Shown piece by piece: positions 15,880-32,781 of a stretch of 64,000 nt of DNA; the stretch's first letter is position 1, and every line of letters starts with the position of its first letter. The translations under genes and the position numbers were made by a program. Under the pieces are notes generated by a model. The model did not search any database, had not been told where the DNA came from, and was given only the letters and a program-made list of their open reading frames with translations. Origin of the DNA: Acidaminococcaceae bacterium (GTDB lineage Bacteria > Bacillota > Negativicutes > Acidaminococcales > Acidaminococcaceae); the NCBI GenBank assembly GCA_022484685.1, contig JAKVKY010000005.1:1-64000 (forward strand), read 5' to 3'.

Positions 15880-16362
15880 TTAGGCTAATAATTTATCAAT
15901 CCAGACTTCTGCTTCATCCAAAGACGTGGCTTTGGCAATACAAATTTCACTGGCCAGTATTTCCCGGGCATTGGTCAGCAAACGTTTCTCCCCCGTCGAC
16001 AACTTTTTATCATGATCCTGCACCGAAAGCACGCGTATCACTTCTGCTAATTCCAGCACATCACCGCTCTTCATCTTATCCAGATAAATAGCAAAACGGC
16101 GGTTCCAGGTGATACTGCGCAAATTGCTGCCGGTCCTGTCTTTCAGGACCTTGGCAATCTTCGTCACTGTTTTTTTATCACTAACCGGTCTCAAACCCAC
16201 CTTTTCCACACTTAGAAAAGGTACATGCACTTTCATGCCTCCGAGCAGCATGGTCAGTACCAGATACTTGGTCGGCTGGTTGGCAAACATCCGTTCTTCC
16301 ACCCCGACAACTTTTCCGGCACCATGCATGGGGTAGACCACGTTATCCCCAATGCTAAACAT
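15880..16362 (-). CDS. CarD/CdnL-family RNA polymerase-binding regulator
   Basis: A 160-residue CarD-type protein. The N-terminal Tudor-like RNA polymerase-interacting domain reads FSIGDNVVYPMHGAGKV ... YLVLTMLLGGMKVHVPF (residues 2-55). The rest is helical (about 70-160) and would contact the upstream fork of the promoter. It includes a conserved tryptophan in SITWNRRFAIYLDKMKSGD. The family stabilises open complexes, often at rRNA promoters. In Firmicutes carD often lies near radA or ispD, as here. Confidence 0.9.
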   Translation of the reverse strand: MFSIGDNVVYPMHGAGKVVGVEERMFANQPTKYLVLTMLLGGMKVHVPFLSVEKVGLRPVSDKKTVTKIAKVLKDRTGSNLRSITWNRRFAIYLDKMKSGDVLELAEVIRVLSVQDHDKKLSTGEKRLLTNAREILASEICIAKATSLDEAEVWIDKLLA

Positions 16363-16551: not shown

Positions 16552-17928
16552 TTAAGAAAAGATAGCCGCAACAGCAGCAGCTACGCTCCGTACCTGCACA
16601 ATCTGGTTTTTAGTGATGCCGCCCAGTTGGTTGGTACTTAACCTTCCTGCCGGCACGACAAACTTTTTAAAGCCCAGTTTGGCCGCAGCAGCTATTCTTC
16701 TTTCAGGAGCCGCTACCCGGCGTACTTCGCCGGTCAGCCCTACCTCGCCAAAAGTCAAAAGCCCATACGGAACCGGTTTATCCCGCATACTGGACACCAG
16801 CGCGGCAATAACTGCCAGATCGGCTGCCGTTTCCTTAACACGCATCCCGCCTACCACATTCACGTAGGCGTCGTAGGTGCCGAAATCCATACCTTTATGT
16901 TTTTCCAGGATAGCAATCAGCATGTTCAACCGGTTAAAATCAAAGCCTACCGCTGTCCGCCGTGGCAGACCGAAAGGCGTCCTGCTCACTAAAGCCTGAA
17001 ATTCTGTCAGGATAGGGCGATTGCCTTCCAGACAACCGCAGACTACCGCGCCTGTCACTGCCTGTTCCCTTTCTTCCAGGAACAAGCCTTCCGGATTGGC
17101 AATCTCTTTGAGCCCGCCTTCCTCCATAGAGAAAATACCGCTCTCATTGGTACTGCCAAAACGATTCTTTAAGGCCCGCAGTACCCTGAAAGCATAACTC
17201 CGGTCTCCTTCGAACTGCAAGACCACGTCCACCATGTGCTCTAAAAGTCTGGGACCTGCAATATTACCTTCTTTGGTCATATGTCCCACAATCAGGACCG
17301 CAATCCCGGTGGTCTTGGCAAAACGCAGCAGCCGGGCCGTACATTCCCGGACCTGCCCCACGCTGCCAGCAGTCGTTTCCACTGCCTCCGTAAACATGGT
17401 CTGGATAGAATCCACCACCAAAAGGGCTGGGTTCACCTTTTCCGCCTGGTCCAAAATATGATCCAGGTTGGTTGCCGTCAACAACAGCAGGCTGTCCGAA
17501 CACTTGCCCAGGCGTTGCGCTCTTAGTGCTGTCTGCTCTTCGCTCTCTTCGCCGCTGACATAAAGACACTTTAACTGTCGCTCAGACAGACGCATTACCA
17601 CGTCCAACAGGATCGTGGACTTACCGATGCCGGGATCACCGCCCAAAAGTACCAAAGACCCTGGCACGATGCCACCGCCCAAAACCCGGTCAAACTCACC
17701 GATGCCGGTGACAATGCGTTCCACCTGGGTCTGGCTGATATTGGCTAAAGTCTTGGGAATGCCTGTTTCCATGAATTTCAGGAAACTTTTGGTAGTTCCC
17801 TGAACGGAAGGTACAGCCGTTTCTTCCACCAAGCTGTCCCAGGTGCCGCATTCCGGACATTTTCCCAACCAGGAAACAGTGGTATATCCGCAATTCTGAC
17901 AGACATATTTAACCTTAGCTCTGGCCAT
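16552..17928 (-). CDS. radA: DNA repair protein RadA
   Basis: A RecA-like helicase for branch migration in recombination and repair. The 458 residues have the standard layout: zinc finger CQNCGYTTVSWLGKCPECG (residues 9-27), Walker A GGDPGIGKST (near 95), the RadA-specific KNRFGSTNE (near 253), and a Lon-protease-like C-terminal domain (about 270-458). It overlaps clpC by 14 bases, so the two are translationally coupled in the ctsR-clpC-radA operon. Confidence 0.97.
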   Translation of the reverse strand: MARAKVKYVCQNCGYTTVSWLGKCPECGTWDSLVEETAVPSVQGTTKSFLKFMETGIPKTLANISQTQVERIVTGIGEFDRVLGGGIVPGSLVLLGGDPGIGKSTILLDVVMRLSERQLKCLYVSGEESEEQTALRAQRLGKCSDSLLLLTATNLDHILDQAEKVNPALLVVDSIQTMFTEAVETTAGSVGQVRECTARLLRFAKTTGIAVLIVGHMTKEGNIAGPRLLEHMVDVVLQFEGDRSYAFRVLRALKNRFGSTNESGIFSMEEGGLKEIANPEGLFLEEREQAVTGAVVCGCLEGNRPILTEFQALVSRTPFGLPRRTAVGFDFNRLNMLIAILEKHKGMDFGTYDAYVNVVGGMRVKETAADLAVIAALVSSMRDKPVPYGLLTFGEVGLTGEVRRVAAPERRIAAAAKLGFKKFVVPAGRLSTNQLGGITKNQIVQVRSVAAAVAAIFS

Positions 17929-20479
17929 GAACTACTTCCTCTCCCAGAGGCACACACACATCCTCCGGTGTATTTTCCACCTGCGTGAAGGCAAACTCTC
18001 CCCCTACCACGTCCAGATTTACCGTATCACCGCGTCCAAAAACTCCGGACAGATACAAATCGGCCAGCTTGTCTTCCACATTTTTACGTAAAGCCCGGCG
18101 CAAGGGGCGGGCGCCGTAACGCACATCCATACCTACAGCTAACAACTTAGCTTTAGCCGCGGCACTGGCTTTTAAGTGCAATCCCATCTCGCCTAACCGC
18201 ACCTGCATTTCTGCCAGCAGTTTGTCCACAATCTGTGCCAGTTCTTTCTTGCCCAGAGTATCAAAAACCACGACCTCATCCACACGGTTCAGGAACTCGG
18301 GCCGAAAAACCTGTTTGATGTCTTCCAGGACAGCCTGCTTCTTATTTTGTTCCTGTTCGCTGTCACTGGCGGCAAAACCCAGGGCCTTGCCTCCGGCCAG
18401 TTTCTCGGCGCTGGCATTACTGGTCATAATGAGGACAGTGTTACGAAAATCTACCGTGTTGCCCTGACCATCCGTCAACCGGCCATCTTCCATGATCTGC
18501 AGCAAGATATTAAAAACATCAGGATGTGCTTTTTCAATCTCATCCAGCAAAATTACCGCATACGGACGGCGCTTGATCACGCTGGTCAGTTGACCGCCCT
18601 CATCATAACCCACATAGCCTGGAGGCGCACCAATCAGGCGGGATACCGTATGTTTTTCCATATATTCACTCATGTCAAAACGTACCAGCGCCCGCTCGTC
18701 GCCGAAAAGATTTTCGGCTAAGGCTTTTGCCAGCTCGGTCTTGCCCACACCCGTAGGTCCTAAAAATAAGAAACTGCCTACAGGACGGTTAATATCTTTT
18801 AGCCCTGCCCGGGCACGACGCATGGCCCTGGCCACTACACCCACAGCTGTTTCCTGTCCCATAACCCGCTGATGCAGTTGTGCTTCCAGATGCAGCAGTT
18901 GCCTGGATTCAGCCATGGTAAGACGTTCCAGAGGAATATTAGTCCACTCGGAAATTATCTTTTCAATGGTACTGCGTTCCACCTGGGGTTTACCCATCTG
19001 ACCGCTATAATCTTTCACACTGTGCAGCCTGATTTCCGCGCAGGCTTCATCCAGCAGGTCAATAGCTTTATCCGGCAGGTTACGATCGCTGATATAACGG
19101 TCTGCCAGTTCCACCGCCGCCTGCAAAGCCTCATCCCTGATCTCCACTTGATGATAATCTTCATAACGGGGACGTAAGGTCTGTAAAATAGTTAAAGTTT
19201 GTGCTACAGAAGGCGCCTGGATCATGATGGGCTGGAAACGGCGTTCCAAAGCCGCATCTTTCTCAATGCTCTTCCGGTAATCTGCTACCGTGGTGGCACC
19301 AATCACATGCAGTTCTCCCCGGGCCAGGGACGGTTTTAACAAATTTCCCATGCTGACCGTACCGTCGCCGCCATTCATCAGCATCTGCATCTCATCAATA
19401 AACAGGATGATCTGCGGACAATCACGTACCGCCTCAATAATTTCCTGCAGCCGTTCTTCCAGTTCGCCCCGATACTTGGAACCGCCTAAGATACTGCCCA
19501 GTTCCAGGCTGAACACAGTTTTATCCTGCAGGAACTCGGGTACCTGTTTGGCCACGATCATCTGGGCCAACCCTTCGGCTACCGCCGTCTTACCTACACC
19601 AGCCTCGCCTATCAGCACCGGATTATTCTTAGTACGGCGGCTGAGAACCCTGGCCGCATGCGCAATTTCCTTGGCACGCCCTACCACGGGATCCAGCTTG
19701 CCCTGTTCCGCCAATTCATTTAAGTTACGTCCAAAACCCTGTAACGCTTCCAGGGCCCTTTTCATCTTCTCCTGAGCCCGTTCAGCTTCCATCTGTGCCT
19801 GGAACTTATTGCCTTCCGGTAATTCCTTGGAAGCAATAAAATCTTCATGCATCTGATTCTGCAGCTTGCTCCAGGTCAAATCAAAATGTGCCAAAACCCG
19901 GGACGCTACACATTCTTCCGCGGCCACCAGGCCTAAAAGGATGTGAGCCGTGCTTATCTGGCTCAGCAAATCTTTTTGAGCGAATTCCCGGGCCAGCCGC
20001 ATGGCTTCTTTCGCCTTCATAGACAAACCCGCCGGCTCTTCGCTTTCCCCGTTACCGCTCATCCAACTGGACAGTTCCACCCGGACCATATCCTTATTAA
20101 TTTTCAGAGCCTCCAGCAGTCGGGCGGCATAACAATTCTCATTGAGCAGGGCCAGCAAAATGTGTTCAGTCGCAATGTGCTCCTGCCGGCGCTGTTTCGC
20201 ATAACGTCTGGCGGCAACCAGAGCCCGGTTGGCATCCAGGGTATAATGCTCCTCGCCTAACAAACCGTCCATTGGCTGAGCGCTAACCAATTTATGAGCA
20301 AAAGGCTTAATCAAATCTTCCAAGAAAGCCTTCATGCTGTCGCTGTTCACGTCAATCACGTTATCAGGCGCCAATTCCTGGGCACACTGGGCGCACAGCC
20401 ACTTATCTATCTGTTTATTATTTACCACGCACACCACATGCATGGTCGCTTCACGTTTGTGACATCTTTCACATAACAT
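17915..20479 (-). CDS. clpC: ClpC-like AAA+ unfoldase with N-terminal zinc ribbon and no middle domain
   Basis: A 854-residue Hsp100 protein that unfolds substrates for ClpP. In order: a zinc ribbon with CxxC pairs at 3-6 and 29-32, like McsA or the ClpE N-terminus; a double Clp-N repeat (about 80-210); AAA-1 with GEAGVGKT at 291-298; and AAA-2 with GPTGVGKT at 574-581. An LGF tripeptide near residue 690 fits the ClpP-binding loop. Between DLLDEACAEIRL (near 480) and the segment leading into AAA-2, only about ten residues stand where ClpC normally has its UVR/coiled-coil M domain of about 40 residues. I start at the ATG ending at 20479, because AGAGG is eight bases ahead; a GTG three codons upstream is the alternative. 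mcsA and mcsB are absent. Confidence 0.95.
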   Translation of the reverse strand: MLCERCHKREATMHVVCVVNNKQIDKWLCAQCAQELAPDNVIDVNSDSMKAFLEDLIKPFAHKLVSAQPMDGLLGEEHYTLDANRALVAARRYAKQRRQEHIATEHILLALLNENCYAARLLEALKINKDMVRVELSSWMSGNGESEEPAGLSMKAKEAMRLAREFAQKDLLSQISTAHILLGLVAAEECVASRVLAHFDLTWSKLQNQMHEDFIASKELPEGNKFQAQMEAERAQEKMKRALEALQGFGRNLNELAEQGKLDPVVGRAKEIAHAARVLSRRTKNNPVLIGEAGVGKTAVAEGLAQMIVAKQVPEFLQDKTVFSLELGSILGGSKYRGELEERLQEIIEAVRDCPQIILFIDEMQMLMNGGDGTVSMGNLLKPSLARGELHVIGATTVADYRKSIEKDAALERRFQPIMIQAPSVAQTLTILQTLRPRYEDYHQVEIRDEALQAAVELADRYISDRNLPDKAIDLLDEACAEIRLHSVKDYSGQMGKPQVERSTIEKIISEWTNIPLERLTMAESRQLLHLEAQLHQRVMGQETAVGVVARAMRRARAGLKDINRPVGSFLFLGPTGVGKTELAKALAENLFGDERALVRFDMSEYMEKHTVSRLIGAPPGYVGYDEGGQLTSVIKRRPYAVILLDEIEKAHPDVFNILLQIMEDGRLTDGQGNTVDFRNTVLIMTSNASAEKLAGGKALGFAASDSEQEQNKKQAVLEDIKQVFRPEFLNRVDEVVVFDTLGKKELAQIVDKLLAEMQVRLGEMGLHLKASAAAKAKLLAVGMDVRYGARPLRRALRKNVEDKLADLYLSGVFGRGDTVNLDVVGGEFAFTQVENTPEDVCVPLGEEVVHGQS

Positions 20480-20566
20480 AGGGATCACCTCTTTGGTCCT
20501 GGACTAAAGTACATCTATAAAACTTATTTTTAAACTGCGGAGCTGTCACCTGCAGCAACAACAACC

Positions 20567-21785: not shown

Positions 21786-22598
21786 TTAGTTGGCCGGTAC
21801 GATAGTACCTTTAAAGGTGTCGGCAATATACTGCTTGACAGCTTGGGAATGGAACAGGTCCGCAATCTTCTTATAAGTAGGATTATCCTTATCCTTTTCC
21901 CGGGCGGCCAGCACCATCACGGCCAGAGGCTCGTCATCCTTTTCCCAGAAGAGGCCCTGTTTCTTAACATCCAGTTTAGCGCTCATCACATAGTTCATGG
22001 TGATAACGGCAAGGTCCACATCGCTGAGACTGCGGGGCAATTGTGCTGCTTCCAGTTCCTTAAACTGCAGGTGCTTGGGATTTTCCACCACATCTTTAAC
22101 CGTAGCCTTAAAGCCTACGCCGGGTTTTAACTTAATCAAGCCAGCCTTTTCCAGAAGCCCCAGCCCCCGGCCGCCGTTGGTAGGATCATTGGGGATGGCT
22201 ACCGTAGCCTTATCGGGGATAGCTTTTAAATCGTGAATCTTATCGCTGTAAATGCCCATGCGCATCAGAATGGTCTTACCGATAGGTACCAGCTTGGCAT
22301 TATTTTGTTTGGCGAAATTGGCCAGGAACGGCGCATGCTGATAACTGTTCAAATCCAGGTCACCATCGGCCAAAGCCTTATCCGGGGTCACATAATCGCT
22401 AAATTCTACCACCTGCACATTGAGGCCCTGCTTCTTAGCCTCCTTGGCCACCGCCTCCACCACCTGGGCATGCGGTCCGGCCGTAGCGCCGATCTTAATC
22501 GGCTTGGACGTGCCACTTTCCTTCTTGCTGCCACCACAGCCGGCAGCCGCAAAGGCCACTAATGTCAGGGCTACTAACAGATACACCAGTTTTTTCAT
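21786..22598 (-). CDS. metQ: Methionine-binding lipoprotein MetQ
   Basis: Periplasmic or surface substrate-binding component of the MetNIQ methionine importer. The 270-residue NlpA-family protein has a lipobox FAAAGC near residue 20. It has the typical order IKIGATAGPHAQVVEAVAKEAKKQG, VEFSDYVTPDKALADGDLDLNSYQHAPFL, VAIPNDPTNGGRGLGLLEKAGLI and VITMNYV. The ATG ending at 22598 has AAAGGAG at good distance; a TTG three codons earlier is the alternative. No metN or metI gene adjoins it, so it must work with a transporter encoded elsewhere. Control by the SAM-I riboswitch upstream confirms methionine as the ligand class. Confidence 0.95.
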   Translation of the reverse strand: MKKLVYLLVALTLVAFAAAGCGGSKKESGTSKPIKIGATAGPHAQVVEAVAKEAKKQGLNVQVVEFSDYVTPDKALADGDLDLNSYQHAPFLANFAKQNNAKLVPIGKTILMRMGIYSDKIHDLKAIPDKATVAIPNDPTNGGRGLGLLEKAGLIKLKPGVGFKATVKDVVENPKHLQFKELEAAQLPRSLSDVDLAVITMNYVMSAKLDVKKQGLFWEKDDEPLAVMVLAAREKDKDNPTYKKIADLFHSQAVKQYIADTFKGTIVPAN

Positions 22599-22663
22599 CT
22601 TGTACAATCTCCTTTGTCCGGCACAAGTGCCGTAAATTTAACAACGTACCCTTTCATCATGTC

Positions 22664-22696: not shown

Positions 22697-22709
22697 AATC
22701 GTCTTTTGC

Positions 22710-22805
22710 TTCATCTGCCGGATTGCTCCGTTGGATTTGGCACCATGCACCTCAGTGCGGTTGCCGTAGTTTCATCGGGCCAGTCCCTCCGCTACTCGTG
22801 ATGAA
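22710..22805 (-). promoter_or_regulatory. SAM-I (S-box) riboswitch aptamer
   Basis: The minus strand carries the S-box core: P1 arms TTCATC (22800-22805) and GATGAA (22710-22715), CGGAGGGACTGGCCC, GATGAAACTACGGCAACC, GGTGCCAAATCC, and CGGAGCAATCCGGCAG. When SAM is plentiful the closed P1 leaves the downstream terminator free to form, switching metQ off. When SAM is scarce the P1 3' strand pairs with the terminator arm. Confidence 0.97.
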
Positions 22806-22909
22806 TTTTTAGTTGTTGACGCTATGATAGCCCTTCCCCCCGGTGTTGTCAAGGAAAAGGGCTAAACTTTTTCTTATTCCTATTAATTTACTATAAATCG
22901 TTAAGCATG

Positions 22910-30154: not shown

Positions 30155-30183
30155 TTGACAATATGCACTACCTCTGATATAAT
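30155..30183 (+). promoter_or_regulatory. Consensus promoter of the AdoMetDC-like gene
   Basis: TTGACA (30155-30160), 17 bases, TATAAT (30178-30183): a perfect housekeeping sigma-factor promoter, about 65 bases ahead of the start at 30248. Strong constitutive expression is expected. Confidence 0.92.
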
Positions 30184-30247: not shown

Positions 30248-30733
30248 ATGATTATGAATTTAAAATCTACAGGCAAGCTGATTGCCATGGATATGTACAA
30301 CTGCAGCACCGCCCTCCTGGACGATGCGGACAAAGTAGCCTGGACCCTGGAAGACAAGGCCAAGGCCTGTAACATGAGCCCGCGTAAGATCATCATGGAC
30401 CGGGAAGAAGGCAGCAAAGAATTTTCAGTAGGTGTTTCCTGCAAACAGGGACATGTGCTCATGCACCTGTATCCTGAGATTGGTTTTGGAACCATCGATA
30501 TCTTTACCCGCCGGGAAGATGCGGAACCGGACCGTCTGGCGCGCCAGCTGCGGGAATATTTTAATCCGGACAAGACCAAGGTTACCTACCTGAACCGGGG
30601 CGACTTTGGCAGCCTGGCTGATATGAAACCGCGCCGGCACCGTAATACTACTGCCATGCGCCGGATGCGTAACTTTGGCAATAACATGGGCCGGACCTTC
30701 ACCCGCATCATCCTCAAACCTAAATCTATGTAA
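30248..30733 (+). CDS. S-adenosylmethionine decarboxylase-like protein lacking catalytic residues
   Basis: A 161-residue homologue of bacterial SpeH. The family pattern is clear: GKLIAMDMYNCSTALLDD (residues 9-26), FSVGVS (59-64), the H-x-x-x-H-x-x-PE core GHVLMHLYPEIGFGTIDIFT (68-87), and EPDRLARQLREYF. Yet the serine that is cleaved to make the pyruvoyl cofactor (ESH in SpeH) is glycine here (QGH, G68), and the catalytic cysteine (FTCG) is arginine (FTRR, R88). The protein cannot self-process in the usual way. A basic tail of about 35 residues (PRRHRNTTAMRRMRNF) is added. It may be a regulatory or AdoMet/polyamine-binding protein. It has its own strong promoter and terminator. Confidence 0.8.
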   Translation: MIMNLKSTGKLIAMDMYNCSTALLDDADKVAWTLEDKAKACNMSPRKIIMDREEGSKEFSVGVSCKQGHVLMHLYPEIGFGTIDIFTRREDAEPDRLARQLREYFNPDKTKVTYLNRGDFGSLADMKPRRHRNTTAMRRMRNFGNNMGRTFTRIILKPKSM

Positions 30734-30751: not shown

Positions 30752-30784
30752 TAAGGACCATCTCGGAAGAGATGGTCCTTTTTG
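30752..30784. terminator. Intrinsic terminator between convergent genes
   Basis: AAGGACCATCTC and GAGATGGTCCTT form a perfect 12-bp stem with loop GGAA, followed by a T run on the plus strand and by a TTTTTT on the minus strand. Confidence 0.92.
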
Positions 30785-30863: not shown

Positions 30864-31520
30864 TCAGGCCCTGTGTCCTCTGCGGCCGCGCTTACGTACA
30901 TCTGCCTGTAATGGCTGGTCCCAGTCGTCCAGGATTCCTTCGCCGCTGCGGAAACTCATGTTCATCGACTTCACCGCCTCGTAGCAGCACTCCACCCCGT
31001 CCTTATCCGCCACATAATTGGCGGCTCGATCCCGCCGGATGCCCATCCGGCTGGCGGTAGCAATAGCATCTATGTTGGCACCAATAAAAACAAACTCCCA
31101 ACCGCATTCCTGCTGCTGTACCAGTACCTGTTTCACCTTGGCAAAGGTGTACTCGGAGCTGGCATTCTCGTAACCATCCGTAATGATGGTGAACAAAGTC
31201 TTGTCCGGACGCTGTTCCGCCTTCGTATGTTCCTGGGCCGTCTTAATCTTGGCCACCGTCCGGCCAATGGCGTCCAGGAGCGCGGTACAGCCACGGACAT
31301 AGTAGTCCTTAGCTGTCAGCAGGTTTACGCCTTGCAAATCAATACGGTCATGCAAAAGTTCATACTGGTCATCAAAAAGTACCGTGGTCACCAGCGCCCG
31401 GCCTTCCAGTTGCTTTTGTGCCGTCAAGAGTCCGTTAAAGCCGCCGATGGTATCTGTTTCCAAACCAGCCATAGAACCGCTGCGATCCAGGATAAATACT
31501 AATTCTGTTAAATTTTTCAT
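30864..31520 (-). CDS. von Willebrand factor A-domain protein
   Basis: A 218-residue single vWA domain. The metal-ion-dependent adhesion site is intact: DRSGSM at residues 12-17 (DxSxS), the threonine in GCTALLDAIG near 98, and the aspartate in IITDGYENAS near 134. No signal peptide, so cytoplasmic. Such stand-alone vWA proteins (ELVFILDRSGSM, DTIGGFNGLL) are common in Firmicutes; their partners are unknown. The last 20 residues are basic (RKRGRRGHRA). It follows the macrodomain gene by 79 bases, and a perfect palindrome overlaps its ribosome site. Confidence 0.88.
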   Translation of the reverse strand: MKNLTELVFILDRSGSMAGLETDTIGGFNGLLTAQKQLEGRALVTTVLFDDQYELLHDRIDLQGVNLLTAKDYYVRGCTALLDAIGRTVAKIKTAQEHTKAEQRPDKTLFTIITDGYENASSEYTFAKVKQVLVQQQECGWEFVFIGANIDAIATASRMGIRRDRAANYVADKDGVECCYEAVKSMNMSFRSGEGILDDWDQPLQADVRKRGRRGHRA

Positions 31521-31531
31521 TGTCTCAACCT

Positions 31532-31553
31532 CCTTAACTTGGTTAAGTTAAGG
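31532..31553. repeat. Perfect 9-bp inverted repeat at the vWA ribosome site
   Basis: CCTTAACTT (31532-31540) and AAGTTAAGG (31545-31553) around a 4-base centre. On the minus strand, the second arm runs into AAGGAGG, the Shine-Dalgarno of the vWA gene. It could be a protein operator or an RNA hairpin that hides the ribosome site; no T run follows, so it is not a terminator. Confidence 0.8.
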
Positions 31554-31599
31554 ATAGCACTTTTCCCCAGGCAAGTGGTCGTTTGGCAAGCGACACGAC

Positions 31600-32781
31600 T
31601 CAGGGTCCGAAAGGCTTCTCGCCATACGACCCTAAAATCTCATTGACTTCAATGATATCATAAATCTTTTTTTCAAAGCAATACTGCACGATGACATCCG
31701 CTTTCACCGCCGGTGAAAAAGCATAACCGGCACGGGCTAAAAGATCCTCCGCGTCATAAACGGACAGCTGTAGGGCAATAGCCAGGGAGAGGGCCGTAGC
31801 CTTACTGGGTTTATACTGTCTGGCTTTCCGGATCTTGGAAAAAAGTTTCCGGTCCAGATTGGCCCGCTGGTAAACTTCAATCTCGCTTAAACCCCGCTCC
31901 TTGATCAGTTTGAATAAAGTTTCGGCAAAACCTGGCAGCAGGTGCGGCATGCCTGGCAAGGCCATTTCCTGAAATTCCCTAGGTTCTCCGACATCTAACG
32001 CCAGTCTGTCGGCAGACACCCGATCTTCTTCGTACGCAGGGCTGACTGCCTCGCTGCTCTTGGCAGAGCTAGGCTTGCCAGCGGCGCCAGACTTTTTTAC
32101 GCTCCGGGAAACATGCTTTTCTGCAGCCGCTTGCCCGAATTCCCGTAAGGCCTGCAGTTCCCGGGACAGCACCTGGTCCTGTTCCAGCTCACGCCGCCTA
32201 CGCTGACGGTACCGGGGTCGCAGATTCGTATTTTCCTCCAGGATGTTTTCATAGTGCTTACTCAGATAATCATCCAGGGAAATCTTTACTTTTTCCGAAA
32301 CGGTCAGTTTAAAGCGGTCATACACCACCAGATAGACCACCAGGTCCGCTTCCTGTAAAAATTTACGGATTGCCGCCAGGGCGATATGCAAAGCTTCTTT
32401 TTTGGGATAACCATAAATACCCGTGCTGATCAAAGGGAACGCGATAGAATGGCAGCCGTGTTCCAGAGCCAGGATCAACGCCTGCTCATAACAGGAAGCC
32501 AAAAGTTCCGCTTCATGGCTTTGGCCACCCTCCCAGATGGGGCCGGCCACATGGATCACATATTTGGCCGACAGTTTAAAACCGGGGGTCAGCACCGCCT
32601 GGCCCAAAGGGCAACTGCCAATCTTACGGCAGGCAGCTTCCAGTTCCGTATAACCGGCCGCCGCAAAGATGGCGCCGCAGGCCCCGCCACCGGGAATCAG
32701 TCCCGTATTGGCAGGATTCACGATGGCATCCGTAGGCATGGTCACGATATCTTTTTCAACAATGTATAAAGGCACTTTCAC
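31600..32781 (-). CDS. Macrodomain protein with C-terminal helix-turn-helix-like domain
   Basis: A 393-residue fusion. Residues 1-170 are a macrodomain of the YmdB/MacroD type, which binds ADP-ribose and can remove it or deacetylate O-acetyl-ADP-ribose: DAIVNPANTGLIPGGGACGAIFAAAG (near 18) and FPLISTGIYGYPKKEAL (near 120). A charged, probably disordered linker follows (about 185-285). The last 105 residues form an all-helical domain (FKLIKERGLSEIEVYQRANLDRKLFSKIRKARQYKPSKATALSLAIAL), resembling a XRE-type helix-turn-helix and found on several Firmicute proteins. It may sense NAD-derived signals and bind nucleic acid; this is inference. It lies upstream of the vWA gene. Confidence 0.85.
   Translation of the reverse strand: MKVPLYIVEKDIVTMPTDAIVNPANTGLIPGGGACGAIFAAAGYTELEAACRKIGSCPLGQAVLTPGFKLSAKYVIHVAGPIWEGGQSHEAELLASCYEQALILALEHGCHSIAFPLISTGIYGYPKKEALHIALAAIRKFLQEADLVVYLVVYDRFKLTVSEKVKISLDDYLSKHYENILEENTNLRPRYRQRRRRELEQDQVLSRELQALREFGQAAAEKHVSRSVKKSGAAGKPSSAKSSEAVSPAYEEDRVSADRLALDVGEPREFQEMALPGMPHLLPGFAETLFKLIKERGLSEIEVYQRANLDRKLFSKIRKARQYKPSKATALSLAIALQLSVYDAEDLLARAGYAFSPAVKADVIVQYCFEKKIYDIIEVNEILGSYGEKPFGP

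Follow-up and report, generated by a model that had tools for sequence, protein, structure and literature searches.

AdoMet decarboxylase is an enzyme used in the making of spermidine. In the window, i.e., the whole stretch of 64,000 nucleotides from an Acidaminococcaceae bacterium that was analyzed, an open reading frame on the forward strand (30248..30733; 161 amino acids, a single-gene unit) had been described in an initial annotation as a homologue of this enzyme without its pyruvoyl-forming serine and its catalytic cysteine. The locus raises the question of what such a protein does, and whether it has any part in polyamine synthesis. The SpeD/SpeH core comprises residues 7–118 (30266..30601, forward strand). 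The protein matched PF02675 over residues 13–118 with 69.5 bits (E 3.5e-19; Pfam, cutoff 25), and the match of residues 7–118 to the NCBIfam AdoMetDC equivalog TIGR03330 scored 57.6 bits, under the cutoff of 75.65. A sequence search of the PDB with the window protein recovered the AdoMetDC of T. maritima, and Foldseek led from an AlphaFold model to the same enzyme (1tlu/1tmi; TM-score 0.84 by target length). This model was computed from three sequences (the window protein, L032 and L033), and its block means were 82–94 across residues 11–110 and below 50 for most of the tail. Thus, the reading frame with a SpeH core was confirmed by the Pfam match and the predicted fold.

For inspection of the active site, the window protein was aligned with SpeH of T. 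maritima and B. subtilis; around Ser63, the T. maritima reference matches the PDB chain. In the T. maritima enzyme, Ser63 is the pyruvoyl-forming residue, Cys83 the catalytic, His68 the processing and Glu72 the ribose-binding residue. The position of Ser63 is occupied by Gly68 (codon 30449..30451, forward strand) and that of Cys83 by Arg88 (codon 30509..30511, forward strand), as had been proposed from an alignment by eye, which proved correct. His69 (H64 in T. maritima) and His73 (the processing histidine H68) are retained. Judged from these residues, the window protein cannot form the pyruvoyl cofactor, and its catalytic death, i.e., its status as a pseudoenzyme, is strongly supported.

Homologues were present in 54 of 61 relatives, an AdoMet_dc protein in 197 of 201 Negativicutes genomes, and the tail-bearing family in nearly every Negativicutes genome searched. 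Outside the window's family, two AdoMet_dc proteins were usual; most of these Negativicutes had an additional AdoMet_dc gene, which in several genomes was a frame of 260–300 amino acids of the type-1a kind. Searches did not recover the tail-bearing family from G005 (100% complete) or G135 (99% complete), and it therefore looks dispensable in some lineages. Among phage copies, there was one distant SpeD-like match only. In the tree, all tail-bearing proteins formed one clade (100/100) separate from canonical SpeH, and the window protein, with its core and RGDFGxxxDMKP tail, belongs to this monophyletic Negativicutes clade.

Across the 112 members, the sequences of which are related by descent so that counts across them are not independent, serine and cysteine were both kept in 19 and serine only in 12, while serine was lost in 81. 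It was replaced by glycine in 64 members and otherwise by C, T, A, F, H or V. The catalytic cysteine was missing in 39 of the 112 and retained by most close relatives of the window protein. Thus, of the two replacements first noted, Gly68 is general, being the commonest state of the serine column, whereas Arg88 is common to the window protein and just one other member (2/112). On the tree, the serine column requires no fewer than 10 changes of state and the cysteine column no fewer than 12; these counts give no direction, and the inner forks are only partly resolved. The 19 members with both residues point to an ancestor that was probably catalytic, and judged by their residues these members may themselves still be active. 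In the dead lineages, the equivalents of T. maritima S55, E62, F49 and E72 are relaxed or variable, and D15, C19, H69, H73, D84, R117, D119, D125 and P128 remain.

Cys65, together with Gly68-His69, is conserved as a C-x-x-G-H motif in Acidaminococcaceae-like members, and the protein could on this ground still be an enzyme via another route, e.g., a pyruvoyl-independent reaction with this motif. We regard this as very unlikely, because Cys65 is missing in other dead lineages (serine column G, A, F, V, T, H or C). SpeD cores put to other use are known from the SpeD-derived arginine and ornithine decarboxylases (SpeDA/SpeDC), but these, according to PMC10407285, should still have Ser63, His68 and Cys83 and remain pyruvoyl enzymes; by this criterion, the window protein, with serine and cysteine replaced, differs from them. 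The same paper describes SpeD-SpeDC fusions, e.g., of Victivallis vadensis, with a degraded SpeD domain without active-site residues. In these fusions, the degraded domain is joined to an active SpeD, whereas the window protein is free-standing and carries a tail. Veillonella, Sporomusa, Selenomonads, Firmicutes and Bacillota found no mention in the main text of PMC10407285, and no paper or curated family describing the Negativicutes tail clade was found.

The tail begins with the motif R117-G-D-F-G-S-L-A-D-M-K-P128 (30596..30631, forward strand), in which R117 and P128 were invariant in 44 aligned sequences. In the form R-G-D-F-G-x-x-x-D-M-K-P, it is nearly invariant and common to active-site-intact and dead members. 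It is followed by a cationic, amphipathic segment (residues 129–161; 30632..30730, forward strand), for which helices were predicted with low confidence. The basic tail of the initial annotation was borne out by a net charge of +10 over residues 117–161 and by strong purifying selection on the tail in relatives. Family-wide, the net charge of the tail ranged from +6 to +21 with a median of +10, as compared to a core median of -2. The helical hydrophobic moment after DMKP averaged 0.54 versus 0.33 in shuffles (p <0.05 in 79 of 112 related sequences). In a phylum sample of 399 genomes, a tail profile matched 15 Negativicutes genomes and one genome outside; the latter match was weak (E 1e-4) and not convincing. 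Thus, the tail clade is apparently class-specific. Tail profile searches gave nothing convincing as to a known domain. Charge and amphipathicity of the tail fit docking to RNA, the ribosome or a membrane, without telling these apart, and the nucleic-acid binding suggested by the initial annotation would be compatible with the basic tail.

With regard to polyamine synthesis, neither a genuine speH/speD, i.e., a second AdoMet_dc, nor SpeE or NspC was found in the window genome, which is 81.6% complete. In at least 13 near-complete relatives (by hand from tables: G006, G008, G012, G013, G015, G016, G018, G024, G027, G028, G030, G036 and G037), the tail protein was the only AdoMet_dc, and there was no SpeE and no full-length NspC. 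Since these genomes keep the tail protein without SpeE, NspC or a second SpeD, it appears from gene content not to be tied to the spermidine pathway, and a role there as a decarboxylase, in polyamine synthesis or as a prozyme is disfavored. In other genomes of the family, speE was clustered with genes that were named by eye from sequence as encoding an aminotransferase-fold amino-acid decarboxylase and agmatinase-like and carboxyspermidine-dehydrogenase-like proteins; linkage of the tail gene to speE was not seen at the loci examined. Every near-complete genome looked at that encodes an active-site-intact tail protein also had a second AdoMet_dc match.

A dead subunit may nevertheless form heterodimers with an active SpeD, or with a different polyamine enzyme, and thereby activate or restrain it. 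According to PMC5201418 and PMC6221367, the Trypanosoma prozyme is a precedent, being a catalytically dead paralogue with AdoMetDC fold that activates the enzyme, and the second AdoMet_dc gene in most Negativicutes outside the window's family would be in line with such a role. However, the prozyme of trypanosomatids, a class 2 protein of eukaryotes, acts via an active partner (PMC5201418), whereas the tail protein persists where no partner was found, namely in the window genome and the near-complete genomes listed above. With no speE linkage seen either, a prozyme-like role is unlikely.

The initial annotation had also considered the sensing of AdoMet or polyamines. In such a ligand sensor, AdoMet, a polyamine or a nucleotide would occupy the old AdoMet pocket and thereby control binding by the tail. 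His69 and His73, beside the old cleavage site, are nearly invariant, in dead lineages too, and PII-like sensors showed weak similarity to the fold of the window protein (Foldseek, E about 0.01). The retained histidines may, however, be structural, and dead lineages show relaxed constraint where the enzyme has its ribose-binding Glu72 and its Phe49. As the gene also persists without SpeE, NspC or another SpeD, the sensing idea was not supported, and a ligand sensor is rather doubtful. The protein may bind imported polyamines.

The perfect consensus promoter noted earlier was recovered upstream of the tail gene (TTGACA-17-TATAAT, sigma-70, 12 of 12; 30155..30183, forward strand), and an intrinsic terminator with a 12-bp stem, which reads on both strands, lies at 30753..30780. 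In a scan of 121 upstream sequences, including 8 canonical SpeH rows, a 12/12 consensus was found in 25 and 11/12 in 42, as compared to 0 and 0.6 in shuffles. Thus, perfect or near-consensus promoters recur across the family. Among 346 open reading frames of the same loci, five had perfect promoters, four of them being the tail gene and one carD; this CarD-family gene is located at 15880–16362 on the reverse strand. In 16 of 18 genomes, codon adaptation exceeded the local median, but with a single exception it stayed below the median of ribosomal proteins. Accordingly, the strong expression anticipated from the promoter held as far as the promoter sequence across the family is concerned, but codon usage gave only moderate support: on these sequence features, strong transcription of the tail gene is likely, and a high protein level may follow. 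In V. parvula, Vpar_0438, annotated as 'SAM decarboxylase proenzyme', was 18-fold down in coaggregates (PMC6529473), and this gene could be either copy.

A conserved leader RNA in Sporomusa-like members was considered and rejected, as no pair of the 5-pair helix over the ribosome site was changed on both sides, and Rfam searches of the leader in 12 loci gave nothing credible. The Sporomusa-like loci L042, L044, L045, L048 and L050 have leaders of ~110 nt that contain GGCGTA...TACGCC; their ribosome site, AAGGGGCGA, hardly varies, and CGCCT may pair with it, without covariation support.

The dN/dS of the whole gene was 0.01–0.17 (Nei-Gojobori) in pairs of close relatives where measurable, dead ones included. 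The repeated loss of catalytic residues and the failure to find the gene in G005 and G135 might suggest a decaying, functionless relic of a spermidine gene, as might apparent frame splits in G121 and G151. Since dN/dS is this low, the gene is not regarded as a relic; with the tail motif conserved class-wide and the consensus promoter maintained, decay is extremely unlikely. The notion of a conserved pseudoenzyme therefore stands, with homologues in most relatives, serine lost in most members and a low dN/dS. The splits across frames concern L179 (G121) and L162 (G151), both of family f15, and assembly error is possible.

The tail gene stands alone in the window. In several lineages, it is oriented divergently to ctsR-mcsA-mcsB-clpC-radA or lies within a few kb of this cluster, and in the window the ctsR/clpC/radA cluster is ~9 kb away; in the tested f15 genomes, this linkage was not found within ~20 kb on the sides examined. 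The proximity is read as ancestral gene order, and a functional link to the ctsR cluster is possible though not supported. A CtsR operator was rejected, since one exact box and two boxes with two mismatches in 121 upstream regions gave no family-wide signal. An operon partner was rejected as well, because the neighbours differ between lineages: they are recD2/comF in the window's family, whereas other lineages have ctsR-mcsA-mcsB-clpC-radA and rRNA. Several further observations were made in the window. A single frame at 17915–20488 (reverse strand) encodes ClpC preceded by an McsA-like zinc-finger N-terminus; the list of open reading frames contains no separate mcsB between ctsR and radA, and other Negativicutes loci have an mcsB-like gene. 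A SAM riboswitch (RF00162, 81 bits; 22708–22807, reverse strand) lies upstream of a lipoprotein gene (21786–22607) whose product reads like methionine-binding MetQ. At 30864–32781 (reverse strand), a Macro-domain protein (PF01661) adjoins a von Willebrand A-like protein without Pfam match.

Compared with class 1b SpeD/SpeH (T. maritima 1TLU, B. subtilis SpeH; TIGR03330), the window protein is alike in fold, core length, the equivalents of His64 and His68 and a conserved cysteine in strand 1, but differs by the missing pyruvoyl serine and catalytic cysteine, the conserved basic tail, a score below the curated cutoff and its separate clade. We slightly favor the view that it represents a class-specific, SpeD-derived pseudoenzyme family in which the fold is a scaffold and the tail docks on a partner, probably an anionic one. 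The AdoMet-decarboxylase fold would be retained without formation of the pyruvoyl cofactor, and the scaffold would be dimeric, by analogy to class 1b SpeD. The conserved function would reside in the tail jointly with the core: the RGDFGxxxDMKP motif and the flexible cationic amphipathic segment would dock on the surface of a partner, which would most likely be anionic, i.e., RNA/ribosome or the inner membrane. More tentatively, and at somewhat less than even chances, this class-wide, strongly transcribed pseudo-AdoMet-decarboxylase may be a cellular component restricted to the diderm Negativicutes, namely a scaffold that docks on the ribosome, RNA or a membrane and is unlinked to polyamine synthesis.

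A domain search labels this protein AdoMet decarboxylase, and if the label is followed, spermidine synthesis is wrongly assigned to many gut and oral bacteria. Negativicutes such as Veillonella, Selenomonas, Phascolarctobacterium and their kin nearly always carry it. The family clearly illustrates how an enzyme fold can lose its active site several times while a new tail is held constant; tree and residue patterns thus make the new function directly testable. Since the tail was kept while the active site was lost again and again across nearly all Negativicutes, the protein probably has a different job in these bacteria.
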